Source of the DNA: an uncultured Actinomycetes bacterium
Lineage (GTDB): Bacteria; Actinomycetota; Actinomycetes; Nanopelagicales; Nanopelagicaceae
Length of the DNA: 49,114 nt
Reading direction: 5' to 3'
NCBI GenBank assembly: GCA_903899375.1
Contig: CAIUIT010000043.1
Span: forward strand, 1 to 49,114
Shown here: in pieces, positions 14,841 through 49,109 of the stretch
How the letters are laid out: each line of letters opens with the position of its first letter
Numbering within the stretch: the first letter of the stretch is position 1
Translations under genes and position numbers: made by a program
The notes under the pieces: model-generated
Seen by the model: the letters and a program-made list of their open reading frames with translations, nothing else
Databases searched by the model: none
What the model was told of the DNA's origin: nothing

Positions 14841-14879
14841 AAAAGGGCCTTGTGAGAAATCGCAGGGCCCTTTTCTATT
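14841..14879 (+). terminator. Intrinsic terminator of the ABC importer/hydrolase operon
   Basis: AAAAGGGCC at 14841-14849 pairs perfectly with GGCCCTTTT at 14866-14874 around a 16-base loop, followed by CTATT. It lies 21 bases after the hydrolase stop codon. Confidence 0.88.
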
Positions 14880-14884
14880 AACCT
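14879..14884 (+). promoter_or_regulatory. -10 box of a leaderless tsaE promoter
   Basis: TAACCT ends exactly six bases before the ATG at 14891, which puts the transcription start at the A of the start codon. It immediately follows the upstream terminator and settles the tsaE start in favour of ATG 14891 over the in-frame TTG at 14885. Confidence 0.65.
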
Positions 14885-14890
14885 TTGCCC

Positions 14891-15322
14891 ATGTCAGGCG
14901 CTACTCGCATCATCTCCTCGGTCTCCGCAATGGAGGATTTAGGATCATTGCTCGGTAGCAAACTCGCCGCAGGTGCTGTTCTATTACTGAACGGTGGATT
15001 GGGAGCAGGGAAGACAGCGCTCACCCGGGGTATTGGACGCGCGCTTGGAATCAACGATGTCACATCCCCAACTTTTGTTATTTCGAAAATCTATCCTGGT
15101 CGCATTCCGTTGGTTCATGTAGATGCCTATCGCCTGATTGGGCAAGAGCTCGCGGTATTTGATGATCTTGATCTCGAACTTTGGATTCCGCAGTCGGTGA
15201 CCGTCATAGAGTGGGGTGCAGGATTTGTGGAACGATTGAGCGCTGCCTTTATTGAGATTGATATTGAATTCGGGACTAACCCCGACGAGCGAGTGGTCAC
15301 GATCAAAGGCATTGAACTATGA
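14891..15322 (+). CDS. tsaE: tRNA t6A37 threonylcarbamoyladenosine synthesis ATPase TsaE
   Basis: TsaE is the P-loop ATPase that works with TsaB and TsaD to install t6A at position 37 of ANN-decoding tRNAs. The 143 residues carry Walker A GGLGAGKT at 35-42 and the family motifs SPTFVISKIYPG and HVDAYRL; IEWGAG lies near residue 110. It begins a three-gene run with four-base overlaps (tsaE, tsaB-rimI, tsaD), so all bacterial t6A proteins except TsaC are here together. The start is set by the leaderless promoter directly upstream. Confidence 0.95.
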   Translation: MSGATRIISSVSAMEDLGSLLGSKLAAGAVLLLNGGLGAGKTALTRGIGRALGINDVTSPTFVISKIYPGRIPLVHVDAYRLIGQELAVFDDLDLELWIPQSVTVIEWGAGFVERLSAAFIEIDIEFGTNPDERVVTIKGIEL

Positions 15323-16305
15323 GGACGATTTTGGCAATCGATACCTCCACCGACCGCACCACGGTTGGAGTTGTACGAGATGGCGTGGTCATTAAAGAAT
15401 TACATCACGATGATCCGTTGGCACACGGAGAAATTCTTCCCAAATTGGTTGAACAATTGCTCGAGGCGTCAAGTGAAATTGATCTTGTTGCTATCGCGAT
15501 GGGACCTGGCCCCTTTACCGGATTGAGGGTTGGCATCGCCTTTGGACAGGCCTTTGCGTTAGCTCGTGAAATTCCTTGGGTTGGAGTATCAACACTGGCA
15601 GCGATGGCGCTGGCTCACACCGAACCAGAATTTGTTGTTGCAATTGATGCTAGACGAAGAGAGTTTTTCTGTGAGCATTACTCGATGGGAAAACTGTATG
15701 CGCCTCCTATCACGGTCCAGCGCGAAGAGATTGCACTAGTGCCCTTTCCGATCTTTTACGATCCTCCCACAGCGCAAGATATTGCGACGCTCGCTGCAAC
15801 AGCTATGGGGGTTCAAGAACCGATCTATATCCGCAAGCCCGATGCGTATCCGGCTCCCAAGGGCGTGAAGTTCCGCCCGTGGACTCACATGGATCTTGTT
15901 GACATTTATGCTCTGGAAAAATCGATTTACCTGGATGATCTGTGGAGCATGGAGCAATTTAAGGAGGAACTGGCCGGCAAAGGGCGCCAGTATTTAGTAG
16001 CAGAATTTGCGGGCAAAGTAGTTGGTTATGCGGGAATTATGCTCGCTGGTGATGTCTCAGATATTTTGACCCTTACTGTTGCACCGGAATTTCGTCGTCG
16101 CGGAATTGCGCGAGAATTTTTAAAACGGATGGTGGATTGGTCGCGCAATCAAAAAGTAGATGCCATGATGCTTGAGATGCGAGTCGGGAATCTCGAGGCT
16201 GAACCGCTTTATTTAGCTCATGGATTTAGAAAGATCTCTGAGCGCGTTGATTACTACGGCCCAGGACTTACAGCGATCGTGATGCGAAAAGAGTTGGGCA
16301 AATGA
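15319..16305 (+). CDS. tsaB-rimI: TsaB-RimI fusion: t6A scaffold protein joined to ribosomal-protein S18-type N-acetyltransferase
   Basis: A single 328-residue protein made of two enzymes that are separate in most bacteria. Residues 1 to about 180 are TsaB ([19 protein letters not shown], then [20 protein letters not shown] and the end motif YIRKPDAYP), the ASKHA-fold partner that dimerises with TsaD. Residues about 184-328 are a GNAT acetyltransferase of the RimI type, with the acetyl-CoA loop [15 protein letters not shown] at 254-268 and the C-terminal [17 protein letters not shown]. RimI acetylates protein N-termini such as S18. Fusion of this pair is known in Actinobacteria. The gene overlaps both neighbours by four bases. 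Confidence 0.93.
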
Positions 16306-17321
16306 GTAACCAACCTTTAGTTCTAGGAATAGAAACTTCGTGCGATGAAACAGCTGTCGGAATTGTTCGGGGAAGAACTCTGCTTGCCAATGTGATCGCT
16401 TCGAGCGTGGAAGAACATGCACGATTTGGGGGAGTAGTTCCTGAAATCGCCAGTCGCGCGCATCTAGAAGCGATGCCCGCTGTGATCAAACAAGCGCTCC
16501 TTGAAGCTAAAGTTTCTTTCCGCGATCTCGATGCGATCGGGGTAACTGCAGGACCTGGATTAATCGGTGCACTTTTGGTTGGAACCAGCGCAGCGCACGG
16601 ATTGGCCCTTGCCCTCAATAAACCCATTTACGGTGTTAATCACCTCTCATCACATTTGGCGGTTGATGCGCTCGATGAATCAAGACCACTTCGACCGGCG
16701 ATTGGTTTACTCGTGAGCGGGGGGCACAGTTCAATCATTCAAGTGATCGATATGGCGCGTGGAGTGAAAGTTCTAGGGGCAACCATCGATGATGCAGCCG
16801 GAGAGGCATTCGACAAGATTGCGCGTATCCTCGAACTGGATTTTCCTGGTGGGCCAGCAATCGACCGTTTGGCGCTCACGGGCGATCCCACCGCGATCGA
16901 CTTTCCGCGCGGATTGCAGAGTTCGGATTACAACTTCTCGTTTAGTGGTTTAAAGACCGCGGTCTCTCGTTACTTACAACAGACCCCATCGGCGCATAGA
17001 GCCGATGTCGCCGCCTCCTTTCAAGAGGCGATCGTCGATGTACTTCTGACCAAGGCCTTACGCGCGAGTGCTGAAACCGGGATCGACTCCCTGATCATGG
17101 CCGGCGGGGTAGCTGCTAACTCTCGCCTCCGAGCCGAGGCCGCTCGCCGCTGCGCCCTGGCCAAGGTAGAGCTGCGCACCCCGCCACCTCTTCTCTGTAC
17201 CGACAATGGGGCCATGGTGGCTGCCATGGCCTCATTGGCCGTCAGTGCGGGCGTAGCGCCCAGTACACCCGGGTTCCCCACCCTCTCGACAGTTCCGCTG
17301 GATCAGCCCACCTGGGTTTAA
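16302..17321 (+). CDS. tsaD: tRNA N6-adenosine threonylcarbamoyltransferase TsaD
   Basis: TsaD transfers the threonylcarbamoyl group from TC-AMP to A37 of tRNA. The 339 residues are full length: [16 protein letters not shown] at the N-terminus, the metal-binding histidines in [24 protein letters not shown], and the C-terminal [11 protein letters not shown] and CTDNGAMVA. It ends the tsaE operon. About 50 bases separate it from the groEL control region; a weak 5-bp stem at 17334-17348 is the only terminator candidate. Confidence 0.97.
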
Positions 17322-17340
17322 ACAGCCCCGTCCCCTTCGA

Positions 17341-17370
17341 TTGGAAGGCTTTTGCCCCATTCGCTAGAGT
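17341..17370 (+). promoter_or_regulatory. Probable groEL promoter
   Basis: TTGGAA at 17341-17346 and TAGAGT at 17365-17370 are separated by 18 bases, a reasonable housekeeping pair. The CIRCE operator begins four bases later and so would cover the transcription start. Confidence 0.5.
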
Positions 17371-17374
17371 TTGG

Positions 17375-17401
17375 TTAGCACTCACCAAGGGTGAGTGATA
17401 A
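17375..17401 (+). promoter_or_regulatory. CIRCE operator (HrcA binding site)
   Basis: The sequence reads TTAGCACTC, nine bases, GAGTGATAA, which differs from the CIRCE consensus (TTAGCACTC-N9-GAGTGCTAA) at one base of the right arm. HrcA binds this inverted repeat and represses chaperonin genes until heat shock. The hrcA gene is not in the window. Confidence 0.93.
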
Positions 17402-17421
17402 AGATTCTTAAAGGGAGATAA

Positions 17422-19047
<1,626 letters not shown>

Positions 19048-19064
19048 GAGTTTATTAACGCTTA

Positions 19065-19097
19065 AAACGGCCTCCCGGTTTTCTCGGGAGGCCGTTT
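19065..19097 (+). terminator. Intrinsic terminator of groEL
   Basis: AAACGGCCTCCCG at 19065-19077 pairs perfectly with CGGGAGGCCGTTT at 19085-19097, a 13-bp stem with a seven-base loop, 18 bases after the groEL stop. The A and T runs at the base make it a good terminator in the forward direction. Confidence 0.9.
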
Positions 19098-19102
19098 CGC
19101 AT

Positions 19103-19108
19103 TACCCT
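19103..19108 (+). promoter_or_regulatory. -10 box of a leaderless promoter for the DUF3027 gene
   Basis: TACCCT ends exactly six bases before the ATG at 19115, so transcription should start at the start codon. It comes directly after the groEL terminator. Confidence 0.65.
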
Positions 19109-19114
19109 AGCCCC

Positions 19115-19786
19115 ATGACCGACAAATTTAGCGCCCTAGAAATCGCTCGCAACGCCGCGATCGAAGATTCCGGCAACTCGAAATTTGTAGGCGAGCTGGT
19201 CTCGATTGACCAAGAAGATGAACGAATCGCCACCTACCTCTTTGAATCGTCGCTTCCTGGCTACGGAGGTTGGCGTTGGGCCGTCACCATCATCAAGGTT
19301 GATGATGCAGCTCCAGCAACGATTGCCGATGTAGTCCTGCTTCCTGGCACAGAATCACTAGTTGCACCAGAGTGGATCCCTTACAAAGAACGGCTCGAAC
19401 CAGGTGATGTTGGCGTAGGAGATATCGTGCCAACTTCTGCTGATGATCTCCGCCTTGTGCCTGGATTTGAAGCACTTCCTGGAGATGAAGAGCTAGTTCT
19501 GGCTGAACAGATTGAGCTAGGTCTCGGGCGCGCTCGGGTGCTCTCGATCGTCGGTCGAGATGCCGCAAGTAAACGCTGGTATGAAGGCGACCGCGGACCA
19601 AATACTCCTATTGCACAATATGCGCCGCTGCCGTGTCATGGATGTGGCTTCTTCATCCCGATAACGGGCTCACTCCGTTCCGCCTTTGGCGTATGTGCCA
19701 ACGCGCTCTCCCCCGAAGATGCCCGCGTAGTCTCGGTCGATCATGGATGTGGTGCGCACTCGCAAGCCCTCATTGTTCCGGAATAG
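19115..19786 (+). CDS. DUF3027 family protein
   Basis: A 223-residue soluble protein of a family found throughout Actinobacteria with no assigned function, as far as I know. Visible features are a central block with PGYGGWRWAVTI and EWIPYKERLEPGDVGVGD, and a C-terminal cysteine/histidine cluster (CHGCGF at about 176-181, a Cys in FGVCANAL, HGCGAHS near 213-219) that looks like a metal-binding site. The open frame continues upstream into groEL, but the terminator and the leaderless -10 box fix the start at 19115. The neighbouring cold-shock gene and this family commonly occur together in Actinobacteria. Confidence 0.85.
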   Translation: MTDKFSALEIARNAAIEDSGNSKFVGELVSIDQEDERIATYLFESSLPGYGGWRWAVTIIKVDDAAPATIADVVLLPGTESLVAPEWIPYKERLEPGDVGVGDIVPTSADDLRLVPGFEALPGDEELVLAEQIELGLGRARVLSIVGRDAASKRWYEGDRGPNTPIAQYAPLPCHGCGFFIPITGSLRSAFGVCANALSPEDARVVSVDHGCGAHSQALIVPE

Positions 19787-19821
19787 CCTTATTCTCTGTA
19801 CGGGTGGGGCACTTCATCCGT

Positions 19822-19827
19822 TAAACT
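19822..19827 (+). promoter_or_regulatory. Candidate -10 box for the cold-shock gene
   Basis: TAAACT lies 75 bases before the cold-shock start codon and would give a 5' leader of roughly 70 bases. The leader contains short inverted repeats (for example GCCAG at 19837-19841 with CTGGC at 19850-19854). No clear -35 is visible. Confidence 0.3.
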
Positions 19828-19902
19828 AAACCTCTTGCCAGCCCAAGCACTGGCCTTATTAACGCCCCAGGCGCTAATTGTGAGCACAAGAAGGGAAAGC
19901 TA

Positions 19903-20286
19903 ATGCCTATTGGTCGCGTTAAATGGTTCAGCCTCGAAAAGGGATTTGGCTTCATTTCATCGGAAGAGGGCGAAGATGTTTACCTCGCTGCCTCTGCTCT
20001 CCCAACTGGAGTTCCAACGGTTAAGCCAGGAACCAAACTTGAATTCGGAGTTGCCGAGGGCCGTCGTGGTCCACAGGCGCTTTCCGTTCGAATCATCGAC
20101 GAGCCCGCCTCGGTTGTGGCCAATACCCGTATCAATGCTGATGACCTTGCAACAATTATTGAGGACAGCATCAAGATGCTCGACAAGGTTGGCAATGGCC
20201 TGCGTCATGGGCGCTACCCAACCAACGTTGAAGCTGAACGCTTAGGAAAAGTATTACGCGGAATTGCGGGACAGATCGAGGGATAA
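19903..20286 (+). CDS. cspB: Cold-shock domain protein, CspB type with C-terminal extension
   Basis: Residues 1 to about 66 are a cold-shock domain with RNP1 KGFGFIS and a modified RNP2 region EDVYLAASALPTG, followed by GRRGPQALSVRII. These bind single-stranded RNA or DNA. Residues 67-127 are a helical extension (INADDLATIIEDSIKMLDK and HGRYPTNVEAERLGKVLRG) that matches the long mycobacterial CspB rather than the 66-residue CspA type. The start codon has a Shine-Dalgarno AAGGG and a longer leader than its neighbours, fitting post-transcriptional control. It ends four bases before the convergent DUF2530-like gene. Confidence 0.92.
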   Translation: MPIGRVKWFSLEKGFGFISSEEGEDVYLAASALPTGVPTVKPGTKLEFGVAEGRRGPQALSVRIIDEPASVVANTRINADDLATIIEDSIKMLDKVGNGLRHGRYPTNVEAERLGKVLRGIAGQIEG

Positions 20287-20290
20287 ACCC

Positions 20291-20476
20291 TCAAATATCT
20301 TCTCTGCGTTTCCTACGCATAGCGCGCACGATGTATGCAGTTCCGAAGAGGCCTAGCCCAATCCCAACGAGGCAGATCCACACTGATGTGCTCTTGGCGT
20401 TGGTTGCTAATTCAATGACGAGTGCAATGAACCAAGCCGAGGTTCCCAAGATCACAATCGGAAGCGTCTGTCTCAC
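20291..20476 (-). CDS. Small two-helix membrane protein, DUF2530-like
   Basis: A 61-residue protein with two hydrophobic segments (VILGTSAWFIALVIELA and SVWICLVGIGLGLFGTAYIV) and a strongly basic tail AMRRKRREDI. Size, topology and position beside an MFS gene and the cold-shock gene fit DUF2530, but I assign the family only tentatively. The frame could extend to a TTG at 20533, which would overlap the MFS start. The GTG at 20476 is preceded by TATGCT exactly six bases upstream, the leaderless pattern seen elsewhere here, so I choose it. Function is unknown. Confidence 0.65.
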   Translation of the reverse strand: MRQTLPIVILGTSAWFIALVIELATNAKSTSVWICLVGIGLGLFGTAYIVRAMRRKRREDI

Positions 20477-20482
20477 CAGGCG

Positions 20483-20520
20483 AGCATACTTCCTGTCTCC
20501 ACAGGGAACGCTTGTAGACT
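20483..20520. promoter_or_regulatory. Divergent leaderless promoters of the DUF2530-like and MFS genes
   Basis: On the minus strand TATGCT (20488-20483) ends six bases before the GTG at 20476. On the plus strand TAGACT (20515-20520) ends six bases before the ATG at 20527. Both boxes lie in a 50-base gap. Confidence 0.6.
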
Positions 20521-20526
20521 CAAGAT

Positions 20527-21753
20527 ATGTCAACCGATGAAGGCGCTTTGCGCTCCTTCAAGCATCGTAACTTTCGCCTCTTTTTCACCGCCAATTTGAT
20601 TTCGAATATTGGCACGTGGGCGCAGCGGGTAGCACAAGATTGGCTGGTTGTCAGCGATCTTCACAGAGGTGGATCAGAACTGGGAATTGTCACTGGGCTG
20701 CAATTCCTGCCGATGTTACTTTTTAGCTTATATGCCGGTTCGCTCGCTGATCGATTAGATAAACGCAAGCTACTAATAATTACAAATGCTGGTGGAGGTA
20801 TGACCGCTGTCATCATGGGATGGCTGATAATTTCGCATCGGGTAAACCTCACCGAAGTCTTCATCTTGGCCTTTGCCTTGGGGCTCTTTGGAGCGCTTGA
20901 TGCGCCAGTGCGTCAAGCCTTTACCTCTGAGCTTGTTGGCAAGAGCGACATAGGTAATGCAGTGAGTCTCAATGCTGCCAACTTTAATTTGGGAAGACTA
21001 ATTGGCCCCGCCGTCTCCGGAATTTTGATTAAGTATTTCCATACTGGACCATCCTTTTTGCTTAATGCAGGCTCATATTTCTTTGTAATTATTGCGTTGG
21101 TGTTGATGCGCCCAGAAGAGCTACATCGGTTGCCCAAAGATGATAAAGATCGCAAGATCATGGAAGGTCTGCGCTATATCAAAAGCAGACATGACTTAGT
21201 CGCAATTATCGCAACAGTCTTCTTTGCCTCAACCTTTGGCTTGAATTTTCAGATTTTTAACGCACTGATGTCCACAAAGATATTCCACAAAGATGCTGGG
21301 GCCTTTGGATTACTGGGCAGCGTTTTGGCAATCGGATCGCTCGGTGCTGCGATCGTCTCTACCCGTTTGGATCAAAAGCGAAAACCGCTCTTTATTATGA
21401 CTTTCTCTGCTATTTTTGGATTGTTTTTAATAGCACAGGCTTATATGCCCAACTACTTAACTTTCGCTCTGATGCTGCCATTCTGTGGATTCTTTGCATT
21501 GACGACAATGATTTCAGCCAACACCTATGTTCAAACGACGACACCACACGAGTTACGTGGACGAGTCATGGGTTTTTATCTGTTGATCTTTATGGGCGCT
21601 ACTCCCATAGGCTCCCCATTTATTGGCTGGCTAGCGGATGCACTAGGGGTACGAGCAACCGTTGCCATTTGCGGTGGAATTACTACTTTGGGCGGTTTGC
21701 TTATATATTCTTTGATGAGAAAGCGATTATTTAAGTACTCCTACGCTGCCTAG
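20527..21753 (+). CDS. MFS transporter, EntS/MFS_3-like
   Basis: A 408-residue polytopic protein with about 12 hydrophobic helices. The start FKHRNFRLFFTANLISNIGTW and the loop YAGSLADRLDKRKLLI (the MFS motif A between helices 2 and 3) match the MFS_3 exporters related to EntS. The second half repeats the pattern (TTTPHELRGRVMGFYLL). Members export siderophores, drugs or metabolites, and the substrate here is unknown. The start is supported by a leaderless -10 box. Its last 27 bases overlap a small ORF on the other strand. Confidence 0.88.
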   Translation: MSTDEGALRSFKHRNFRLFFTANLISNIGTWAQRVAQDWLVVSDLHRGGSELGIVTGLQFLPMLLFSLYAGSLADRLDKRKLLIITNAGGGMTAVIMGWLIISHRVNLTEVFILAFALGLFGALDAPVRQAFTSELVGKSDIGNAVSLNAANFNLGRLIGPAVSGILIKYFHTGPSFLLNAGSYFFVIIALVLMRPEELHRLPKDDKDRKIMEGLRYIKSRHDLVAIIATVFFASTFGLNFQIFNALMSTKIFHKDAGAFGLLGSVLAIGSLGAAIVSTRLDQKRKPLFIMTFSAIFGLFLIAQAYMPNYLTFALMLPFCGFFALTTMISANTYVQTTTPHELRGRVMGFYLLIFMGATPIGSPFIGWLADALGVRATVAICGGITTLGGLLIYSLMRKRLFKYSYAA

Positions 21754-21818
21754 TACTGCAAGCAAAAATAGCAACATCAAGACACCTATAGTTACCCGTC
21801 TTCGCATTTTATGGCTCA

Positions 21819-21819
<1 letters not shown>
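21727..21819 (-). CDS. Predicted 30-residue single-helix membrane peptide coupled to serC
   Basis: A short ORF that starts inside the serC stop codon (TGATG, one-base overlap), so ribosomes finishing serC could reinitiate on it. It encodes 30 residues: a basic start MSHKMRRR followed by a continuous hydrophobic stretch (VTIGVLMLLFLLAVLGSVGV) and a final Leu-Lys, the layout of a small transmembrane protein. The last 27 bases overlap the 3' end of the MFS gene. No family is recognised. Conservation in related genomes would be needed to call it real with confidence. Confidence 0.45.
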
Positions 21820-22952
<1,133 letters not shown>

Positions 22953-22960
22953 AGGCATAC

Positions 22961-23638: not shown

Positions 23639-23747
23639 AGGTGTATCTAACGTCACTTTCGTCTTTTCGGCTATTTGGGCTCTGGGGTTTGTACCGCGCA
23701 CCTTCTAGCGCGAGAATAGGCGCACCTAATTGTGGAGGGATCTTTCC

Positions 23748-24863: not shown

Positions 24864-24875
24864 CTAGATTTGCTG

Positions 24876-25966: not shown

Positions 25967-25979
25967 TTACCACCACTGC

Positions 25980-29808: not shown

Positions 29809-29812
29809 AGGT

Positions 29813-31897: not shown

Positions 31898-32740
31898 TTA
31901 ACGTTTCAGCCAAAATCTCAACGACTGATTGACGTAACTAGCCCACGAGCGTTCGTTATGACTTGTATGGTTGAATATTGGCGTTGCTAAATCACGCCCG
32001 TATCGATAACCCATAGCCAGCGCTATCTTGTTTGCATACTCTTGGTAGGGCCCGTACTTAGCATCATGAGACTTTGTTCCGCGACTCATCCAGATTCTGT
32101 GATTGCCGGGTTTGGGGAGTGATTTCATGAGCCCTTCGACCAATGGCTCTTTGCCGACAGTCCAATGTGGAGAAAAAGAGAGAGCAGTTCGGTATAAATC
32201 TGGATAACGGGCAATTCCATTGAGCGATGCCAAACCACCCATACTTGCGCCCATCATCGCCGTGTGCTCGGGAAGTATGTTGTGGCCTAGATAATTGCAG
32301 ATGGTTGGAATGATTGCTTCGCTGATCTGCTCTAAGTATGCGTTCCCGCGAAGTTCCGAGAGTGGGAATGTCGGTTCGGGGGTTGGCCAGATTCCCGGGA
32401 AGTTAAGAGTTGGTTCGACTCCATCAGTGAACAAATCTTGCGGCGCTAAATCTTTACCTCGACCATAAGGATCGCTAGGACTTCTTGAATGAAAGACCGA
32501 GATAATAATAGGGGCGGGGATACCTAGTTCCGAAGCGACCTTATTAGCGGTGCCGGCCAACTCCCATGTCCGGTGCCGGCTGGATGTGGATTTATCAAAG
32601 ATATTTTGACCATCATGTGTCACCAACATGTAGGGGGTAGGAGTAGGTGGAGCCCAAAAATCTACAGTCCGACCATCAAAGAGGGCCCGCCTTACTTCGC
32701 CGGGAGCACCTCGAACTTGAAACTGCTTAACGATCTGCAT
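31898..32740 (-). CDS. Esterase of the enterochelin esterase/esterase D superfamily
   Basis: A 280-residue protein without signal peptide, so probably cytoplasmic. It has the fold of PF00756-type esterases: YMLVTHDGQNIFD near the start, the nucleophile elbow MMGASMGGL with Ser166, candidate acid Asp226 in SHDAKYG and His261 in NHTSHNERSW. Relatives cleave esters of siderophores, acetylated sugars or formylglutathione. It is convergent with the amylase, its stop codon directly abutting the other stop. Whether it belongs to starch use is not clear; its own leaderless promoter suggests separate control. Confidence 0.78.
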   Translation of the reverse strand: MQIVKQFQVRGAPGEVRRALFDGRTVDFWAPPTPTPYMLVTHDGQNIFDKSTSSRHRTWELAGTANKVASELGIPAPIIISVFHSRSPSDPYGRGKDLAPQDLFTDGVEPTLNFPGIWPTPEPTFPLSELRGNAYLEQISEAIIPTICNYLGHNILPEHTAMMGASMGGLASLNGIARYPDLYRTALSFSPHWTVGKEPLVEGLMKSLPKPGNHRIWMSRGTKSHDAKYGPYQEYANKIALAMGYRYGRDLATPIFNHTSHNERSWASYVNQSLRFWLKR

Positions 32741-32746
32741 TATGAA

Positions 32747-32752
32747 AGGATA
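32747..32752 (-). promoter_or_regulatory. -10 box of a leaderless esterase promoter
   Basis: On the minus strand TATCCT ends exactly six bases before the ATG at 32740. The same bases read on the plus strand contain the Shine-Dalgarno (AAAGGA at 32745-32750) of the divergent photolyase, so one short segment serves both genes. Confidence 0.6.
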
Positions 32753-34125: not shown

Positions 34126-35473
34126 CTTCATACATTGCGGTATCGGCTCGTCGCATGAGTTCATTGCTTCCATCATTGATTACTCGGCCGATACTTACTC
34201 CGACGGTGACTTCATGCCCCTCGACGACAAAAGGGTAACTAACCGTTGAGGATAGCGCCATCGAAACTTCTGAACCATGTCTGGCCCCGCCGGGTATCAC
34301 GACTCCAAATTCATCTCCGCCAAGCCGAGCCAAGAGCGAGCCATGCGGAACCACTCGGGAGAAACGAAGAGAAATTTGGCGTAGAAGATCGTCACCCGCC
34401 CCATGTCCCAAAGTGTCGTTAATAGATTTAAAACCATCTAAATCTAGCAAGAGCAGAGTTCCTGGTTTATTATCCAACAATTCAATCTCGGTCATGAACC
34501 GCCGGCGATTAGCCAAGCCAGTCAATTCATCGATCCGAGAGAGTTCGAGATTGGTCGATGCGCTTCTCGCATCTTTGAGTGCTGCTGCCATTCTGACAAC
34601 CGCCAGCGCGACAGTCGCTATCGCAGGAATCAACGCAACATCTGGCAGATACCCGCGCCGCAGCGCCGAGATAGTCAATATCGCTCCACTAAAAATCATC
34701 GCAATCGTTATAGAGCTTGAAATGATTCGTTCGCTGATTTCTGATTCTCCGCCATGGTGCCACAGAGCCTCGGCCATTAATATCAGCCCCAAGAGCCAAC
34801 CATCATCGGTTAGTTGGGCAAATGTGTAACCGGTTGTGCCAGATTTATAAAGAAAGTAAATGTCGGTAACTGTGAATGAGGCTATGGCCGCCAGGAAGAG
34901 CAGCGATCGCAGGGCTCGGCGTTGCACTATGACAATGATCAAAGCCATGGAGAGCAGGACGACATCACCTATCGGGTAGACGATCGAGAGAAAGACGCTC
35001 GTTGAACTTCCAATAAAGTGCGCCATTGCGCTCTTAAGGAAGAGCGCGGCGATCAAAGTAGAAAAGCCGAAAATAATGATGACCACATCCAGGAGCTCCA
35101 ACGAATGAAATTTGCGATGTGCCGTTAGTGCCCTGATCAATCCAAATAATATGAACGGATAAAAGAGGATGTAACAGAGATCTGAAAGATTAGGCCAGAT
35201 TGTTGGCGTGTAAAAGTCGTTCCAGCCAGTCGCAATCGACCCGATAGCCCAGAGAAATAGTGCTGAACTCAACGCCAGTCTTGCTAGATGGTCGTTAAAC
35301 GTTGGAGCAAAGAAGGCAACGGCTGTACTTAATAGAGCTATCGCGTTATAAATATAAAGATCTGCAAAAACGCTGGGAGTAGGAAATATCAGACGAAGGA
35401 TGACATGAACGATCAGGAGTGCAAATACTGATGCGCGCAGTTTGGCGTAGGCCCGCGCTGTTCCAATTGCCAT
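34085..35473 (-). CDS. Membrane-bound diguanylate cyclase (GGDEF)
   Basis: A 462-residue protein: about eight to ten hydrophobic helices over residues 15-305, then a GGDEF domain from about 315 to the end. The catalytic motif RLGGDEFGVV (GGDEF at 385-389) and the Mg-binding LLLLDLDGFKSINDTLGHGAGDD are intact, so it should make cyclic di-GMP. The RxxD inhibitory site is absent from its usual place before GGDEF. No EAL, HD-GYP or PilZ gene is near. The membrane part resembles uncharacterised actinobacterial sensor domains. The ATG is preceded by TAGCCT with the leaderless spacing of six bases. Confidence 0.92.
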   Translation of the reverse strand: MAIGTARAYAKLRASVFALLIVHVILRLIFPTPSVFADLYIYNAIALLSTAVAFFAPTFNDHLARLALSSALFLWAIGSIATGWNDFYTPTIWPNLSDLCYILFYPFILFGLIRALTAHRKFHSLELLDVVIIIFGFSTLIAALFLKSAMAHFIGSSTSVFLSIVYPIGDVVLLSMALIIVIVQRRALRSLLFLAAIASFTVTDIYFLYKSGTTGYTFAQLTDDGWLLGLILMAEALWHHGGESEISERIISSSITIAMIFSGAILTISALRRGYLPDVALIPAIATVALAVVRMAAALKDARSASTNLELSRIDELTGLANRRRFMTEIELLDNKPGTLLLLDLDGFKSINDTLGHGAGDDLLRQISLRFSRVVPHGSLLARLGGDEFGVVIPGGARHGSEVSMALSSTVSYPFVVEGHEVTVGVSIGRVINDGSNELMRRADTAMYEAKRAGGGSVLWKP

Positions 35474-35479
35474 CGCAAG

Positions 35480-35485
35480 AGGCTA
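35480..35485 (-). promoter_or_regulatory. -10 box of a leaderless promoter for the GGDEF gene
   Basis: On the minus strand TAGCCT ends six bases before the ATG at 35473. Confidence 0.6.
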
Positions 35486-38724: not shown

Positions 38725-38751
38725 AGGTGGTGCCTTTCAGGGGTGGTCGGT

Positions 38752-38798: not shown

Positions 38799-38813
38799 GT
38801 TAAGGGGAATACT

Positions 38814-39574: not shown

Positions 39575-39587
39575 GCCTTACTTTTTA

Positions 39588-39788
39588 CTATTCACCTGAG
39601 CTAGTTGCAGCCGGACGAGAATCGTTCTTGTAGAAACCGGTTCCTTTAAAGACCACACCAACATTGGAATAGACCTTGCGGAGTTCGCCTTTGCATTCGG
39701 GGCAGGTCAAAATCGGCTCTTCCGAGAAGGCTTGGAACTGCTCAAACTGGTGACCGCAGTCGGCGCACGCATATTCGTAGGTCGGCAT
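39588..39788 (-). CDS. FmdB-family zinc-ribbon protein
   Basis: A 66-residue protein starting MPTYEYACADCGHQFEQFQA, with two CxxC pairs (CADC and CPEC) forming a zinc ribbon, then KVYSNVGVVFKGTGFYKND, the typical FmdB ending. The family is often annotated as a putative regulatory protein, but its role is not established. On the minus strand TACACT (39801-39796) lies seven bases before the ATG, a near-leaderless arrangement. Confidence 0.92.
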   Translation of the reverse strand: MPTYEYACADCGHQFEQFQAFSEEPILTCPECKGELRKVYSNVGVVFKGTGFYKNDSRPAATSSGE

Positions 39789-39881
39789 GGAGGTAAGTGT
39801 AAAGAGGTGAGAGGATAGGTTCTAATCCACGAGGGATTGAGGGCGGTTTTTGAGGCTCTCCGGCGGAATGAAGGGCTGGCA

Positions 39882-40481: not shown

Positions 40482-40585
40482 TTCTCGAAAGGGCGGCGGT
40501 CAATCTTCAAAACCACCTGCAAAGCTCAAACTCTCTTATTGGATTTCTACTTCCAATCACTAAGGATCTCTATCTTGTCGCGATC

Positions 40586-42935: not shown

Positions 42936-42970
42936 AGGAGCACCTCCCCGTTAATACCTGACGAAAGAAG

Positions 42971-42976
42971 TAAGGT
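42971..42976 (+). promoter_or_regulatory. -10 box of a leaderless promoter for the moeA-like gene
   Basis: TAAGGT ends exactly six bases before the ATG at 42983. The gene is divergent from 5-FCL with a gap of 47 bases. Confidence 0.65.
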
Positions 42977-42982
42977 TAAACC

Positions 42983-43900
42983 ATGGACTCGCAGATTACC
43001 GTCAAAAAAATGTTGGCGGAGCTACTTGCGATTTCGCATTCGCTCGCCCCCTTTGATATGCCGCTTCTCGACGCTCACGGCGCAACCTTGGCCGATGACA
43101 TCTACGTCGATGATCAGGTAGTCCTCCATAAAGGCACTCGAATTCGATCACCTCAGATTGGTCTGGCAGCATCACTCGGACTCTCTCGTTTACCCACTCA
43201 GCCACATCCCCGCGTAGTTGTTATCTCTGCCGGAGACGACCTGGTCGAACCTGGACAGCCCATCACCGCATCTGCGGAGTTTGAAACTAACTCTTGGATG
43301 TTGGCCACCGCGGCCAAAGAGGCGGGGGCGGTCGCCTACCGCGTTCACACGATTCCAGTGAATAGAGCGCAGTTGAAAGCGGTTATCGAAGATCAGCTCG
43401 TTCGCGCCGATTTGATTGTCATCAGTGGCGAGAGTAACGACGGATCCTTTGAGCTTATAGAAGAGGTCCTGCGCGAAATGGGAGAGATTGCGAGTGTAAT
43501 TCCCAATCTTCTGGGCAGCGCCCGTCACTGCTATGGAACGATTGGCGAGGATGGAATCCCGGTAATTACCCTTCCAGGGGACCCCATAAGCGCGTATGTA
43601 TCCTTTGAAATATTTATCCGTCCCATGATCCGAACTATGCTCGGGGTGAAGAATGTTTTCCGCTCAACAGTGAAAGCAGTTTTGGCCGTTGATCTCGAAT
43701 CACCCATCGGATTTGCCTCGCTCGTTCGTGCAACTCTTTCACCGGGTGGGGAAGGGGAACCTTTTGTCACCCCCATCGCCGAACAAAATCAACTTCTGGC
43801 CCTTTCACAGGCCAGTGCCTTCATCACTGTTTCGGCCGATTCACCGGGCTATCTCAAGGGCGAGATTGCAGAGATCATGATCTTGGATAGAACGCTTTAA
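42983..43900 (+). CDS. Shortened MoeA-like protein, probably not a molybdotransferase
   Basis: A 305-residue MoeA relative, about 100 shorter than MoeA. Residues 1-45 match the MoeA N-terminus, then the sequence jumps to GTRIRSPQIGLAASLGL, so the segment that holds PxxDNSAMDGYA and the rest of domain II is missing. In the MogA-like domain (about 75-220) VVISAGDDLVEPGQP is kept, but GGVSVGD has become GESNDGS and the KPGKP loop is replaced (VIPNLLGSARHCYG); LPGDPISAYVSFE replaces LPGNPVSA. The C-terminal domain IV is present. It probably lost molybdenum insertion and kept another role. It starts at a leaderless ATG. Confidence 0.8.
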   Translation: MDSQITVKKMLAELLAISHSLAPFDMPLLDAHGATLADDIYVDDQVVLHKGTRIRSPQIGLAASLGLSRLPTQPHPRVVVISAGDDLVEPGQPITASAEFETNSWMLATAAKEAGAVAYRVHTIPVNRAQLKAVIEDQLVRADLIVISGESNDGSFELIEEVLREMGEIASVIPNLLGSARHCYGTIGEDGIPVITLPGDPISAYVSFEIFIRPMIRTMLGVKNVFRSTVKAVLAVDLESPIGFASLVRATLSPGGEGEPFVTPIAEQNQLLALSQASAFITVSADSPGYLKGEIAEIMILDRTL

Positions 43901-43902
43901 TA

Positions 43903-44478
43903 ATGGAGCGTTGGCCCTATCGACTCGAAGACCGCGAGCTCTCGCTGCGGCCGATGCGCTATCGAGACCGCGCAGAGTGGCGCAAGGTTCGCCGAACTAA
44001 TCTCGAGTGGCTCGCGCCGTGGGAGGCTACCCGCCCGGCCATTGAATCAGATGCACCTTTGCCAAGCTACTTCGGAATGGTGCGTTATTACAATAAAGAA
44101 GGTCGCGAGCTACGTTCTTTATCCCTGGGAATTTGGCTTAAAGATAAGGGTAAAGAGCGCCTTATCGGGCAGATCACCCTAGGGGGAATTATTTTTGGTG
44201 CTTATCGCGGTGCGCACATCGGCTATTGGATTGATCAAAGTGTTGCCAATATGGGCTACACAACCCGCGCTGTAAAAGCCTTGACCCGCTTCGCTTTTTC
44301 AGAGTTACAGCTCCATCGCATCGAAATAAACCTGCGCCCAGAGAATGCTGCATCTAAGAAAGTTGCAGAGAAGAGCGGCTATGTTTTTGAAGGAGTCCGT
44401 GAGCGATATCTTCACATCGCGGGTGATTGGCGCGACCACCTGACTTTCGTGGCCGAAAACCCCAATAATTTCAATTGA
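43903..44478 (+). CDS. rimJ: RimJ/RimL-type GNAT acetyltransferase
   Basis: A 191-residue GNAT enzyme, likely acetylating a protein N-terminus. It starts WPYRLEDRELSLRPMRYRDRAEW, as in actinobacterial RimJ; the fold includes LIGQITLGGI, HIGYWIDQSVANMGYTTRAVKAL (acetyl-CoA loop region) and HRIEINLRPENAASKKVAEKSGY, then the family end FEGVRERYLHIAGDWRDHLTF. It follows the moeA-like gene by two bases, the same order as in mycobacteria. Targets cannot be inferred here; S5 is the E. coli RimJ target. Confidence 0.9.
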   Translation: MERWPYRLEDRELSLRPMRYRDRAEWRKVRRTNLEWLAPWEATRPAIESDAPLPSYFGMVRYYNKEGRELRSLSLGIWLKDKGKERLIGQITLGGIIFGAYRGAHIGYWIDQSVANMGYTTRAVKALTRFAFSELQLHRIEINLRPENAASKKVAEKSGYVFEGVRERYLHIAGDWRDHLTFVAENPNNFN

Positions 44479-44545
44479 GAGATATTTGGGGACATAAGGG
44501 CTAAATCCCGACTTTTCGCCCAAAACTGAATTATTGTTTCATTCC

Positions 44546-45295
44546 ATGGCATCCGGACTTATTTATCTGATCATCATCGGAATGTGGGTCGCCTATTTTT
44601 TACCGCGGTGGATGCGTCAACATGACACCCAATCTGGGCGTGAGAGCGAAAGATATAAAAGTGCGATGAAGATTGTCGCCTCTACTCCAAATTTTCCTGA
44701 TCTTATCAATCCAGAAGAGCGATCAAAAGCGCTGAAAATACGCCGCCTAGTTCTTGGCGCGCTCACACTGGTGCTCGCAGGGACAGCGCTCGCAAGTGCG
44801 TTGAGTTATGTTCCTCTATTATCAATTTTGATTCCACTTACTGCGCTCTGTATCTACATTATCAATGTGCGTCGCCAGGTCGTCGCCGCAAACATCAAGA
44901 AGCGCCGACTTGCTGCACTTGCCGCGATCACTGCTGTCGAAATTAAAATAGATCCGCAGGCCCGCATTAATCTTTCAAATCGCCAACGTAGAGAGAGCGA
45001 AGTTATCGTGGAGCAATGGATTCCGTTGCGCGAACGAGAACTGAGCTCATCAATCACGATTATTGAAAAACATGAAGAGCGCAGTTGGTCTCCTATAGCT
45101 GTCCCACGTCCAACGTATGCGACCGCTCCTAAAGCAATTAATCCAAAGCGCACCGTTGATTTAACGACACCGGGTAAGTGGAGTGCGGAACAAGAGCGAC
45201 AGAAAGCCCTTGAACTCCCAGAGCGCGATGAACTATTCGATCAGGAGTTGGCAGAGCAAGCGGCGGCCGCACGTGATCAGGCAGTTAACCAATAA
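44546..45295 (+). CDS. Membrane protein of the Rv0996-like family, function unknown
   Basis: A 249-residue protein: one N-terminal helix (about 3-18, LIYLIIIGMWVAYFLPRW), a charged stretch, two further helices (about 66-105, VLGALTLVLAGTALASALS and LLSILIPLTALCIYII), then a long basic, then acidic cytosolic tail. Position after rimJ and before pmt matches the uncharacterised mycobacterial Rv0996. A frame extension to TTG 44534 exists; ATG 44546 seems better, with TATTGT eight bases upstream. The tail, rich in Arg, Glu and Gln, looks disordered with short helices. Function is unknown. Confidence 0.7.
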   Translation: MASGLIYLIIIGMWVAYFLPRWMRQHDTQSGRESERYKSAMKIVASTPNFPDLINPEERSKALKIRRLVLGALTLVLAGTALASALSYVPLLSILIPLTALCIYIINVRRQVVAANIKKRRLAALAAITAVEIKIDPQARINLSNRQRRESEVIVEQWIPLRERELSSSITIIEKHEERSWSPIAVPRPTYATAPKAINPKRTVDLTTPGKWSAEQERQKALELPERDELFDQELAEQAAAARDQAVNQ

Positions 45296-45297
45296 CT

Positions 45298-46659
45298 TCA
45301 GATCCAACTAGGAAACCACATAAGCGAGATCCACTGGTGATAGGTGATCAGGCTGCCAAGATAGAGCGGTAGAAAATAGAAGAAATTAAGAACAATTGCC
45401 GCGAGATATCCGTAACTTAAATATCGGCGAAATTTCGAAACTTCGCCAGATTCGCCGGGCTCTAAAAGTTTCGACAGGGCATAGACAATTATCAAAACAA
45501 GAAATGGTTCAAAGGCGATGGTGTAGAAAGTGAAGACAGTACGTTTCTGCCAATTGAACCAAGGCAAATACCCTGCCGCTAAACTGAGCAATAAGAGACC
45601 GCTCTGCCACTCTCTACGTGCTATCCAATAACCAAAGGTGACGGCAATGGCGATCACTCCCGACCACCAGAGCAACGGCGTGCCGAGCGCTAATATCTCT
45701 TGCGCACAGGCTGAAACGCCACATCCCTTAGGAGATTGATAATAGAAAGAAGTTGGCCTTCCCATAATAAGCCAGCTCCAAGGGTTGGCAGAGTAAGGGT
45801 GAGTAGCTGTTAACGTTGTGTGAAAATTCCACATCTCGGCGTGATAGTGCCAGAGTGAGCGGATCGGTCCGGGTACAAAGTTAAAGAAGCCGTGGTTGTG
45901 TGTATTAGCCCAAGCGCGATCGTAACCTGAGGTATTAAAGAACCAACCCACCCAACTTGCGATGTACACGCCCACTGGAATGACGATGTATTGCAAAACA
46001 CGTTTAAATACTTTTTCGTGAATTAGAGACTTTATTGGGTTTTCAATTTCTAGCGCTCTGTTCTGCCGATAATCAACATAGACAGTAAAAAGCAGGTAGG
46101 CCACTAAATAATAGATTCCACTCCATTTAGTCGCTGCAGCTAATCCAAGGGAAATGCCGGCTGCAAAGTGTTGACTGCGCAGGAGAAAGAGAAATCCCAA
46201 AAGCGTAAAGAACATCAAGAAAATATCGAGCAGCGCGGTTCGCGACATTACCAAGTGCATTCCATCAGCGCTCATCAATACACCAGCGCTCAAAGATAAG
46301 AAGTAATTATTAAAGAGGCGCTTTGCGATGTAGAAAATCATGACGATGGATGCGGTGCCGACGAGCGCTGCGCTGATGCGCCAACCGAATTCGTGATACC
46401 CAAATACTTTTATTCCAGCGGCAATCATCCACTTTCCGATTGGCGGGTGAACTATGTATTGCGCTGCCGCAGTCTTCGGATCAAATTCAACTCCATGGTG
46501 GAGTAAGGAATTGGCATTTTGGGCGTAGTAGGTCTCATCGAAGACGAAGCCCTTAGGGGAACCCAAATGCCAGAGGCGAAAGAGAAGTGCGAAAATGGCC
46601 AGGCCAATTACGCTGGAGCGTTCCCCGCGGCGGTCTTCAACCAGCCCTGGGAGTGTCAT
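45298..46659 (-). CDS. pmt: Dolichyl-phosphate-mannose-type protein O-mannosyltransferase (PMT)
   Basis: A 453-residue polytopic GT39 enzyme that transfers mannose from polyprenyl-phosphate mannose to Ser/Thr of exported proteins. The catalytic first loop FVFDETYYAQNANSLL carries the Asp-Glu pair; HPPIGKWMIAAGIKVFGYHEFGWR follows, and later MLSRTALLDIFLM-like and WSWLIMGRPTSFYY segments. About 10-11 hydrophobic helices are seen. The mycobacterial orthologue (Rv1002c) lies next to the RsmI gene, as here. The ATG is set by TACGCT six bases upstream. Confidence 0.93.
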   Translation of the reverse strand: MTLPGLVEDRRGERSSVIGLAIFALLFRLWHLGSPKGFVFDETYYAQNANSLLHHGVEFDPKTAAAQYIVHPPIGKWMIAAGIKVFGYHEFGWRISAALVGTASIVMIFYIAKRLFNNYFLSLSAGVLMSADGMHLVMSRTALLDIFLMFFTLLGFLFLLRSQHFAAGISLGLAAATKWSGIYYLVAYLLFTVYVDYRQNRALEIENPIKSLIHEKVFKRVLQYIVIPVGVYIASWVGWFFNTSGYDRAWANTHNHGFFNFVPGPIRSLWHYHAEMWNFHTTLTATHPYSANPWSWLIMGRPTSFYYQSPKGCGVSACAQEILALGTPLLWWSGVIAIAVTFGYWIARREWQSGLLLLSLAAGYLPWFNWQKRTVFTFYTIAFEPFLVLIIVYALSKLLEPGESGEVSKFRRYLSYGYLAAIVLNFFYFLPLYLGSLITYHQWISLMWFPSWI

Positions 46660-46665
46660 GGGGTA

Positions 46666-46685
46666 AGCGTAAAGCCTGAGAGAAT
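46666..46685. promoter_or_regulatory. Divergent leaderless promoters of pmt and rsmI
   Basis: On the minus strand TACGCT (46671-46666) ends six bases before the pmt ATG at 46659. On the plus strand GAGAAT (46680-46685) ends six bases before the rsmI ATG at 46692. The gap between the genes is only 32 bases. Confidence 0.55.
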
Positions 46686-46691
46686 TGGTTC

Positions 46692-47531
46692 ATGCTGATC
46701 CTTGCCTGTGGCCCGCTGGGCAACCCTGGGGATACCTCCGATCGGGTGAAGCGCGCCCTGGAGAGCGCTCCGTACATCGCTGCTGAAGACTCTCGCAAAC
46801 TCAGCCGCCTGACGGGCGATTTGGGGATCCGCTACACCGGGAAGGTCATCTCGTATTTCGAAGGCAACGAGAGCGAACGGATCGAACAACTCACAGAGAT
46901 CCTTACTTCTGGCAGTGATCTCTTGGTTATTACCGATGCCGGGGCGCCGGGAATTAGCGATCCGGGTTATCGCCTTATTCAGGTAGCAATCAATAACGGC
47001 ATTCCTATTCAGGTGCTTCCGGGGCCTAGTGCAGTCACTACAGCCCTTCTGCTCTCTGGGCTCGCCACAGATCGGTTCTGTTTCGAGGGTTTTTCACCAC
47101 GAACGCCCGGAGCTCGTAAAAGCTGGTATGAAAAGTTGATCACGGAAGAGCGCACGATCATTTTCTTCGAAGCACCTCACCGTCTCCAGGAATCTCTAGA
47201 AGATGCTCTCGAAGTACTGGGCGCCGATCGACGAGCGGCTATCTGTCGCGAGATGACAAAGAGATATGAAGAGACCGTGCGTGGAACGATAGCGGAACTG
47301 CTGACGTGGAGCACCGATCGAGAAATATTAGGGGAACTCACGATCGTGCTAGCAGGTTTTGACTCTGGAGCCCTTGCATACACGGCAGGCGATTTAGTCG
47401 AGCTGGTCTTAGCACGCGAAGGGGCCGGGGAAACACGCAAGGATGCAATTGCCTCGCTTGCAAAGGAATTAAACCTCCCTAAGCGCGTGGTCTTTGATGC
47501 CATGGTCGGCAACAAAGCCTCGGGTAGATAA
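46692..47531 (+). CDS. rsmI: 16S rRNA (cytidine(1402)-2'-O)-methyltransferase RsmI
   Basis: RsmI 2'-O-methylates C1402 in the decoding centre, using S-adenosylmethionine. The 279 residues have the tetrapyrrole-methylase fold: ILACGPLGNPGDTSDRVKRAL, AEDSRKLSRL, VITDAGAPGISDPGYRLI, VLPGPSAVTTALLLSGLAT and FFEAPHRLQESLEDA. Length is normal. It is divergent from pmt and directly precedes metG, the conserved actinobacterial order. Confidence 0.96.
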   Translation: MLILACGPLGNPGDTSDRVKRALESAPYIAAEDSRKLSRLTGDLGIRYTGKVISYFEGNESERIEQLTEILTSGSDLLVITDAGAPGISDPGYRLIQVAINNGIPIQVLPGPSAVTTALLLSGLATDRFCFEGFSPRTPGARKSWYEKLITEERTIIFFEAPHRLQESLEDALEVLGADRRAAICREMTKRYEETVRGTIAELLTWSTDREILGELTIVLAGFDSGALAYTAGDLVELVLAREGAGETRKDAIASLAKELNLPKRVVFDAMVGNKASGR

Positions 47532-47534
47532 GAT
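47529..47534 (+). promoter_or_regulatory. -10 box of a leaderless metG promoter
   Basis: TAAGAT ends exactly six bases before the metG ATG at 47541. It overlaps the rsmI stop codon (TAA, 47529-47531), so metG can be transcribed independently of rsmI. Confidence 0.65.
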
Positions 47535-47540
47535 CGTCCA

Positions 47541-49109
47541 ATGAGCGCCGAATCTAAGTCCTTTTATCTCACGACGCCGATTTACTATGTCAACGATGCG
47601 CCGCATATCGGCCACGCTTACACAACTGTCGCTGGAGATGTCCTTACCCGTTGGCACCGCCAACGCGGCGAATCAGTCTGGTTCCTTACGGGTACGGATG
47701 AACACGGACAAAAAGTTCTAAACACAGCAAAAGCAAATGGAGCAGAGCCCCAGCAGTGGTGTGACAAGCTCGTAGAAGGCGCTTGGAAGCCGGTCTGGCA
47801 ATCACTCAATATCGCCAATGATGATTTCATCCGCACCACAGAGCCCCGTCACATGGAACGCGTACAACGCTTCCTCTCGGGCCTCAAGGATCAAGGCCAT
47901 ATCTACGCCGGCAAGTATGAAGGCCCTTATTGCATTGGTTGCGAAGAGTTCAAACTGCCCGGAGATCTTCTTGCTGGAGAACTCTGCCCAACGCATTCAA
48001 CCCCGTGTGAAATTCTCAGTGAAGAGAACTGGTTCTTCAGACTTTCGGCTTTCGTTCCTGCTCTTCTCGATCACTATAAGAAAGATCCATCAGCCTGCGA
48101 ACCGACATCGGCACGTAATGAGGTTATTTCCTTCCTCGAAGGGGAAGTTCAAGATCTCTCAATTTCACGTTCGACATTTGATTGGGGAATTCCCGTTCCG
48201 TGGGATACCAAGCAAGTTATTTATGTATGGTTCGATGCGCTCCTTAATTATGCAACCGCTGTTGGTTTGGGTGACGATGTAGGTACTCCTGGAGCGAAGA
48301 AATTTGCGCAGACCTGGCCCGCCGATGTACATCTTGTTGGAAAAGATATCTTGCGCTTTCATGCTGTGATCTGGCCAGCGATGTTGATGGCTGCCGGCCT
48401 ACCGTTACCTAAAAAGGTTTTTGCTCATGGCTGGCTGCTTGTTGGTGGCGAAAAGATGAGCAAGTCAAAACTCACAGGTATTGCACCTGCTGACATCACC
48501 GACCATTTCGGTGTCGATGCATTCCGTTATTACTTCTTACGTGCGATTCCCTTCGGCAGCGATGGATCTTTCTCTTGGGAAGATATGTCGGCACGGTATA
48601 CCTCGGAATTAGCAAATGACTTCGGAAATTTGGCCTCTCGGTTAATTGCAATGATCGAGAAGTATTGCGATGGGGTAATTCCTGCGCTCGCTCACGATGA
48701 TGCATTAAGCGCCGCTCTCAATAGTGCTGCCGAAACTGCAGATGCAGCGATCTGCGCCTTGGACTTTCAAGGGGGCATCAACGCCATTATTGATTTTTGT
48801 AAGCGAGTAAATGGGTATGTCACTGAGCAGGCTCCGTGGGTCTTGGCTAAAGATCCGGCTAACAAGGTGGAGCTCGATAAAGTCTTGTACAACACCGCGG
48901 ATTCAATTCGCGCTTTGGCGGTCTTGCTTCATCCCGTGATGCCCGCGACTACGCAAATACTCTGGGAGAGCCTGGGCGCTCAAGAGACGCTGGGTGATAT
49001 TGGTTTGCAGAAGATTGGCGAAGTTTCCCGCTGGGGACAGTTGCCACCAGGTTCTAAGGTCACGAAAGGCGCGGTGCTCTTTCCGCGATTAGAAGAAAAA
49101 GCGGAGTAG
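47541..49109 (+). CDS. metG: Methionine--tRNA ligase
   Basis: Class I synthetase charging initiator and elongator tRNA-Met. The 522 residues are complete and end five bases before the window edge. HIGH is PHIGHAYTTV (residues 22-25 for HIGH) and KMSKS is GGEKMSKSKL at 305-309. A connective-peptide metal site may be formed by Cys131, Cys134, Cys149 and Cys156 (YCIGCEEF, ELCPTHSTPCE). The C-terminal tRNA-binding/dimerisation domain of long MetG proteins is missing, as in mycobacterial MetG. Its ATG is directly preceded by a leaderless -10 box. Confidence 0.97.
   Translation: MSAESKSFYLTTPIYYVNDAPHIGHAYTTVAGDVLTRWHRQRGESVWFLTGTDEHGQKVLNTAKANGAEPQQWCDKLVEGAWKPVWQSLNIANDDFIRTTEPRHMERVQRFLSGLKDQGHIYAGKYEGPYCIGCEEFKLPGDLLAGELCPTHSTPCEILSEENWFFRLSAFVPALLDHYKKDPSACEPTSARNEVISFLEGEVQDLSISRSTFDWGIPVPWDTKQVIYVWFDALLNYATAVGLGDDVGTPGAKKFAQTWPADVHLVGKDILRFHAVIWPAMLMAAGLPLPKKVFAHGWLLVGGEKMSKSKLTGIAPADITDHFGVDAFRYYFLRAIPFGSDGSFSWEDMSARYTSELANDFGNLASRLIAMIEKYCDGVIPALAHDDALSAALNSAAETADAAICALDFQGGINAIIDFCKRVNGYVTEQAPWVLAKDPANKVELDKVLYNTADSIRALAVLLHPVMPATTQILWESLGAQETLGDIGLQKIGEVSRWGQLPPGSKVTKGAVLFPRLEEKAE

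Follow-up and report, generated by a model that had tools for sequence, protein, structure and literature searches.

The stretch of DNA analysed here in full (the window) is 49,114 nucleotides long, has a GC content of ~50% and comes from an uncultured freshwater bacterium of the Nanopelagicaceae (Actinomycetes), in whose genome assembly (1.38 Mb, 138 contigs, 90.7% complete) it is contig C43. It contains genes whose start codons are preceded at a set distance by a hexamer of the form TANNNT, a candidate -10 element of leaderless transcription. The original prediction had named ten such hexamers, each six bases before a start codon, and all ten are present with that spacing and lead into in-frame starts of open reading frames of 61–522 amino acids (nine ATG and one GTG), with gene identities that agree with Pfam. 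On the forward strand these are tsaE (TAACCT-N6-ATG, 14879–14893, start at 14891; Pfam TsaE), which is of the putatively leaderless type, a DUF3027 gene (TACCCT-N6-ATG, 19103–19117, start at 19115; Pfam DUF3027), an MFS gene (TAGACT-N6-ATG, 20515–20529, start at 20527; Pfam MFS), a moeA-like gene (TAAGGT-N6-ATG, 42971–42985, start at 42983; Pfam MoCF/MoeA_C) and metG (TAAGAT-N6-ATG, 47529–47543, start at 47541; Pfam tRNA-synt_1g). On the reverse strand they are a DUF2530 gene (TATGCT-N6-GTG, 20474–20488, start at 20476; Pfam DUF2530), serC (TAGGGT-N6-ATG, 22938–22952, start at 22940; Pfam aminotransferase V), an esterase gene (TATCCT-N6-ATG, 32738–32752, start at 32740; Pfam esterase), a GGDEF gene (TAGCCT-N6-ATG, 35471–35485, start at 35473; Pfam GGDEF) and pmt (TACGCT-N6-ATG, 46657–46671, start at 46659; Pfam PMT). 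Two near misses also stand as they had been described, namely rsmI, with GAGAAT at six bases (TGA-GAGAAT-N6-ATG, 46677–46694, forward strand, start at 46692), and fmdB, with TACACT at seven (TACACT-N7-ATG, 39786–39801, reverse strand, start at 39788, with C at -1).

Genes were called from codon usage only, with starts picked without any upstream signal, and we define the gap as the number of bases between the end of the hexamer and the start codon. The window set comprised 48 starts, of which one at position 2 had no upstream sequence and was dropped; the starts of the DUF2530 gene and serC were taken from the original prediction, and fmdB was added. Among the remaining 47 starts TANNNT occurs ten times at gap 6 and 0–1 times at every other gap from 0 to 30, while the caller's own starts place it at gap 6 in eight of 46 genes. 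We then extended the count to a genome sample of the window and 20 further stretches (302,791 bases, 293 genes), leaving out seven genes that were open at the 5' end and one of the 286 closed genes that lacked 60 nt of upstream sequence, and filtered later samples alike. Of these 285 genes 48 carry TANNNT at gap 6, against 0–8 at the other gaps from 0 to 30, which is the sharp peak at six bases that the original prediction had anticipated, and taking the longest possible start in place of the called one gives 51. We also scored all 64 gapped patterns of the form XYNNNZ at 45 gaps in the 148 first-in-unit genes, this being a positional guess (neighbour divergent, or on the same strand at a distance of 60 bases or more, or contig end), and TANNNT at gap 6 ranked first with 33 genes, the next combination reaching 10. 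A raw count of TANNNT-N6-ATG over both strands of the whole genome (357, against 333 in the reversed control) was uninformative and was set aside, because chance matches within genes dominate it.

Since the motif is defined here relative to the start codon and not to a mapped transcript start, it could in principle serve translation or reflect the base composition around starts, with no promoter involved. We regard this as most improbable. When all in-frame ATG and GTG codons near the start are considered, 58 genes have the hexamer at gap 6, whereas out-of-frame codons in the same stretches give one gene and no peak. Likewise, three 40-kb stretches of Escherichia coli K-12 (109 genes) treated with the same caller show no gap-6 peak (one gene). 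Furthermore, in the family sample introduced below, TANNNT at gap 6 is rarer directly behind another gene (53/646 internal genes) than in divergent ones (91/348), and the same motif lies 7–12 bp upstream of mapped starts in Mycobacterium tuberculosis (PMC3898074).

The family sample comprised 1416 genes and added stretches from 18 further Nanopelagicaceae genomes, taken at fixed coordinates, some of them around metG, and thus not at random. Here TANNNT occurs 17, 190, 48 and 25 times at gaps 5, 6, 7 and 8, respectively, and 2–22 times at the remaining gaps to 30. We also examined relatives of individual genes, using 76 metG, 62 pmt and 69 rsmI loci out of 80 each, together with 27 of 30 for serC, 29 of 29 for DUF3027 and 25 of 26 for tsaE, the window gene itself being counted in these last three sets; loci were excluded if the alignment started beyond residue 25 or the upstream sequence was cut off. 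An in-frame ATG or GTG near the start with TANNNT at gap 6 was found in 69/76 metG, 45/62 pmt, 19/27 serC, 18/29 DUF3027 and 16/25 tsaE genes, with 0–6 at other gaps except for 12 pmt genes at gap 7. This scoring replaced an earlier one restricted to the nearest start, which had given 67/76 for metG, 13/21 for pmt and 2/69 for rsmI. Three of the metG loci (L097, L098 and L100) come from outside the family and lack the motif, and the motif-less relatives of serC (8/27), DUF3027 (11/29) and tsaE (9/25) may be leadered or use gaps 7–8. The relatives thereby back the start corrections that had been proposed for tsaE, DUF3027 and serC. Two side observations concern the metG loci: the organism names on the metagenome-assembled genome records of four close relatives (L038, L040, L053 and L095) look wrong (Bifidobacterium breve, Streptomycetaceae, Streptomyces griseus), and a second piece of 138 bases at a contig start (G000:C103:1-138) encodes the last 46 metG residues at 100% identity, probably as an assembly overlap.

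The start codons themselves are not fixed among these relatives. Relative to the window gene they are offset by -2 to +4 codons in metG, -8 to +5 in tsaE, -16 to +2 in DUF3027 and -9 to +13 in pmt, as taken from local alignments that are least certain for pmt and DUF3027, and gap 6 still stands out although starts differ by up to 16 codons. This makes a clear case, read from the aligned sequences, that the putative -10 element and the start codon shift as one block, and that the length of the N-terminus would follow the promoter.

We next considered the genes in which the gap is longer than six. At gap 7 the base at -1 is a pyrimidine in 45/48 family genes (p = 2.3e-9), compared with 770/1416 over all genes and with a pyrimidine at position 7 in 91/221 decoy TANNNT hexamers. 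Likewise, pyrimidines fill both extra positions at gap 8 in 22/25 genes, compared with 448/1391 other genes (p = 1.6e-8). Gaps 7 and 8 are thus used almost only if no purine precedes the start codon from position 7 on, which is as expected if the polymerase takes the first purine that it meets from position 7 onwards; E. coli RNA polymerase favours initiation at a purine and at position 7 downstream of the -10 element (PMC5730371). The start codon would then begin with the first purine found seven or more positions after the hexamer. This first-purine rule explains the near miss at fmdB, where the A of the ATG is the first purine from position 7 on. The six-base spacing that had been called rigid is therefore a sharp preference, relaxed to seven or eight when the extra bases are pyrimidines.

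Genes at gaps 7 and 8 (48 and 25 of 1416) could instead mean that the hexamers are -10 boxes whose transcripts start a few bases off the codon, giving leaders of 1–5 nt, and in Corynebacterium glutamicum 80 mRNAs have leaders of 1–10 nt (PMC3890552). The pyrimidines before the start at these two gaps are, however, what is expected if transcription must hit the codon. In addition, TTG starts are found in 0/231 gap-6 genes of both the TANNNT class and the second class described below, versus 148/1185 other genes (p = 1.5e-12, family sample), and in mycobacteria ATG and GTG function at the 5' end of a transcript, whereas TTG hardly does (PMC4633059). Short leaders in place of truly leaderless transcripts are accordingly a very unlikely account of these genes.

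Shine-Dalgarno core tetramers occur in 4/124 first-in-unit and 5/53 internal TANNNT genes of the family sample, compared with 150/504 first and 155/582 internal genes without the motif and 6–9% in control windows. The contrast drawn in the original prediction, in which leaderless genes lack Shine-Dalgarno sequences and genes inside operons have them, thus survives in its first part, the motif genes being poor in cores, but not in its second, as first genes without the motif match internal ones. The conserved letters of the 16S rRNA 3' end with the anti-Shine-Dalgarno sequence have one match in the genome, at letter level, and from their presence it follows that the lineage probably uses both leaderless and Shine-Dalgarno initiation. 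Upstream of the hexamer, no -35 box was detected in 129 TANNNT genes (no position from -42 to -17 exceeding 0.06 bits), although variable spacers could mask a weak one. The bases preceding the hexamer tend to [GC][AG]N (55/129 at gap 6), while its middle bases are open, with at most 0.3 bits.

Taken together, we consider it highly probable that the hexamers are -10 elements that place the transcription start on the start codon and so give leaderless mRNAs. The sequences themselves show the spacing peak, the pyrimidine rule, the choice of start codon, the scarcity of Shine-Dalgarno cores, the conservation and the co-movement; which sigma factor acts, where the RNA begins and how translation starts are inferred, as follows. 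The elements would be of the housekeeping sigma factor type, recognised by A at -11 and T at -7 (A-11 and T-7) and by one further feature, which is T at -12 (T-12) in the main class, TANNNT, and TG at -15/-14 in the second class. Polymerase would start seven positions after the hexamer, or eight or nine if pyrimidines occupy the positions before, with the start codon sitting at the first purine from position 7 on, and ribosomes would need no Shine-Dalgarno site to begin on an AUG or GUG at the very 5' end. The leaderless reading of the original prediction is hence strongly backed by the in-frame-only peak, the absence of TTG at gap 6, the scarcity of cores, the lack of a -35 box and the finding that hexamer and start codon shift together, whereas its description as prevailing, its strict six bases and its full Shine-Dalgarno contrast were overstated.

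Several observations weigh against this interpretation. One gene among the 305 that fit the full rule given below starts with TTG, and the signal varies in strength among genomes, one low-GC genome of the family (G029) having 0/37 genes at gap 6. The gene caller disagreed with the leaderless start for serC (it picked TTG at 22946) and the DUF2530 gene (GTG at 20455), and it missed fmdB. A loose Shine-Dalgarno score, counting any 4-mer of the anti-Shine-Dalgarno complement, told neither the groups apart nor either of them from the far-upstream control, with 15/48 TANNNT genes versus 20/48 in the control window and 55/115 other first genes versus 59/115; the core tetramers replaced it and were chosen after this first result had been seen. 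TANNNT is also in slight excess at gap 9 (22/1416 family genes), where the spacer is pyrimidine-only in 3/22, so that the first-purine rule does not account for it, and this excess is not due to an ATG or GTG one codon upstream (0/22). Three further class genomes (448 genes, GC-rich and with starts called less well) have a pyrimidine at this base in 15/20 gap-7 genes, which is non-significant (p = 0.16). Finally, the orthologs and stretches were drawn from one family and are non-independent, and in the second class Shine-Dalgarno cores are found in 8/41 genes (control 1/41), so that not all of its members need be leaderless and some may be leadered.

This second class emerged from rsmI, whose relatives carry TANNNT at gap 6 in 2/69 cases but an extended -10 element, TGN-VANNNT, at gap 6 in 64/69, mostly TGNGANNAT. 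In the family sample TGN-VANNNT is found at gap 6 in 41/1416 genes and at other gaps from 0 to 30 in 1–9, and at gap 7 the base at -1 is a pyrimidine in 9/9. These 41 genes have the features of an extended -10 promoter, namely TG at -15/-14, a weak or missing T-12 and the same spacing. Among genes with A-11 and T-7 at gap 6, 185 have T-12 without TG, 41 have TG without T-12, five have both and 59 have neither. The last group is no commoner at gap 6 than at other gaps (34–91), and hence one of T-12 and TG seems to be needed, with both together rare. In extended -10 promoters, TG and T-12 are generally known to substitute for each other. The window holds another member of this class that was absent from the original prediction, upstream of an alanine racemase gene (TGA-GAGAAT-N6-ATG, 7323–7340, forward strand, start at 7338); its element lies within the end of the preceding gene and its nine letters are identical to those of rsmI.

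For these TGN-VANNNT genes, and with no bearing on the TANNNT genes, we also considered dependence on an activator or on an alternative sigma factor. The class lacks T-12 and has inner bases of its own (G at -12, and rich in A at -9 and -8), and rsmI retains it in nearly all relatives; on the other side, it shares A-11, T-7, gap 6 and the pyrimidine rule with the main class, its TG interchanges with T-12, and it also occurs at gap 6 in the three other class genomes (13/448). On balance we think a separate sigma factor or activator unlikely, and favour one recognition scheme with two forms of the element.

To estimate how common such starts are, we counted genes under a full rule, TANNNT or TGN-VANNNT at gap 6, or at gaps 7–8 with pyrimidines, which was fitted to the same genes that it counts. 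In the genome sample 66/285 genes fit (shifted decoys 6.5); by position, the counts are 45/148 for first-in-unit (decoy 4.0), 36/88 for divergent (2.0) and 17/117 for internal genes (2.0). The family sample gives 305/1416 (decoy 32.6), with 193/655 for first-in-unit genes, and the three other class genomes 61/448 (4.9), whereas E. coli gives 3/109 with decoys at 4.9. On this count roughly one gene in five, and one first gene in four, would be leaderless. Leaderless starts make up 19.2% of genes in Actinobacteria on average (PMC3160421) and 33% of mapped mRNAs in C. glutamicum (PMC3890552); the share here is thus usual for Actinobacteria and below the prevailing start signal that had been claimed. 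In the three other class genomes TANNNT stands at gap 6 in 29 and at gap 7 in 20 genes, and the comparison with the family (190:48 versus 29:20, p = 0.003) weakly suggests a stricter preference for gap 6 within the family, the other class genomes using both gaps about equally. At gaps 6 and 7, respectively, one 20-kb stretch from each of 20 genomes of the phylum gave 4 and 7 genes out of 103 for the seven genomes of the class and 5 and 7 out of 233 for the other thirteen, a sample too thin for a ranking of lineages, which was dropped.

That leaderless genes are well known in Actinobacteria holds, and the window genes fit the TANNNT kind. Zheng et al. (2011, PMC3160421), surveying 953 bacterial genomes available at the time, described TA-led genes in Actinobacteria with the same TANNNT, whose first T lies ~12 bp before the start codon, in about 20% of genes; in that survey medium-GC groups have TAtaaT, whereas the Nanopelagicaceae, at a window GC of about one half, keep the middle bases open. 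Mycobacteria (PMC3898074, PMC4633059) share TANNNT with no -35 consensus, [GC][AG]N before the hexamer, a purine start, C at -1 and only ATG or GTG at the 5' end. They differ in that their case rests on mapped 5' ends and reporters, ours on sequence and comparison, and in that TGN precedes TANNNT in 7% there, compared with 5/190 here. M. smegmatis promoters of the ANNNT/VANNNT form (PMC6448022) likewise have A-11 and T-7, can lack T-12 and show two dominant spacings; in the text consulted, loss of T-12 is not tied to TG at -15/-14, whereas here VANNNT without TG is unenriched. A -10 motif adjoining open reading frames in Deinococcus-Thermus (PMC12340547) is similar in being TANNNT, mostly without -35, leaderless and at a defined spacing, but belongs to another phylum and is experimentally proven. 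A narrow literature search found no paper pairing 'leaderless' with 'planktophila' or 'nanopelagic'. To this known kind the present analysis adds a first-purine rule read purely from sequence, a rule that leaderless promoters carry either T-12 or TG, and the observation that hexamer and start codon shift together. The acI Actinobacteria, which include the Nanopelagicaceae, are reported as the group with the highest abundance in most freshwater lakes (PMC5301498), and the rule would allow start codon and transcript start to be predicted from sequence for ~1 in 5 genes, correct N-termini and tell which near misses are real.

We finally examined whether the stop codon of a preceding gene can supply promoter letters, as at metG, where the TAA of the hexamer (47529–47531) is the stop codon of rsmI. 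In the family sample 28/1045 same-strand pairs are exactly nine bases apart, an excess over the 4–11 at distances 6, 7, 8, 10 and 11, though distance 12 has 18 and distance 2 has 27. All 28 stop with TAA or TAG and 13 of them read TANNNT; T at -7 in these pairs (13/28 versus 24/84) is only suggestive of a stop codon doubling as -10 letters. Eight of the 28 pairs carry Shine-Dalgarno-like tetramers, one of these pairs also reading TANNNT, and overlap of stop codons with Shine-Dalgarno sites is a known effect (PMC2784483); for a stop codon as promoter letter, a literature search with narrow terms found no description. The broader proposal would be a compact written rule for gene beginnings (A-11, T-7, T-12 or TG, first purine) in which hexamer and start form one block, N-termini are re-cut by promoter moves and preceding stop codons can double as promoter letters, and we hold the chances for and against it to be even. 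At distance 12, a TGA stop codon gives the TG of the second class in 3/18 pairs.

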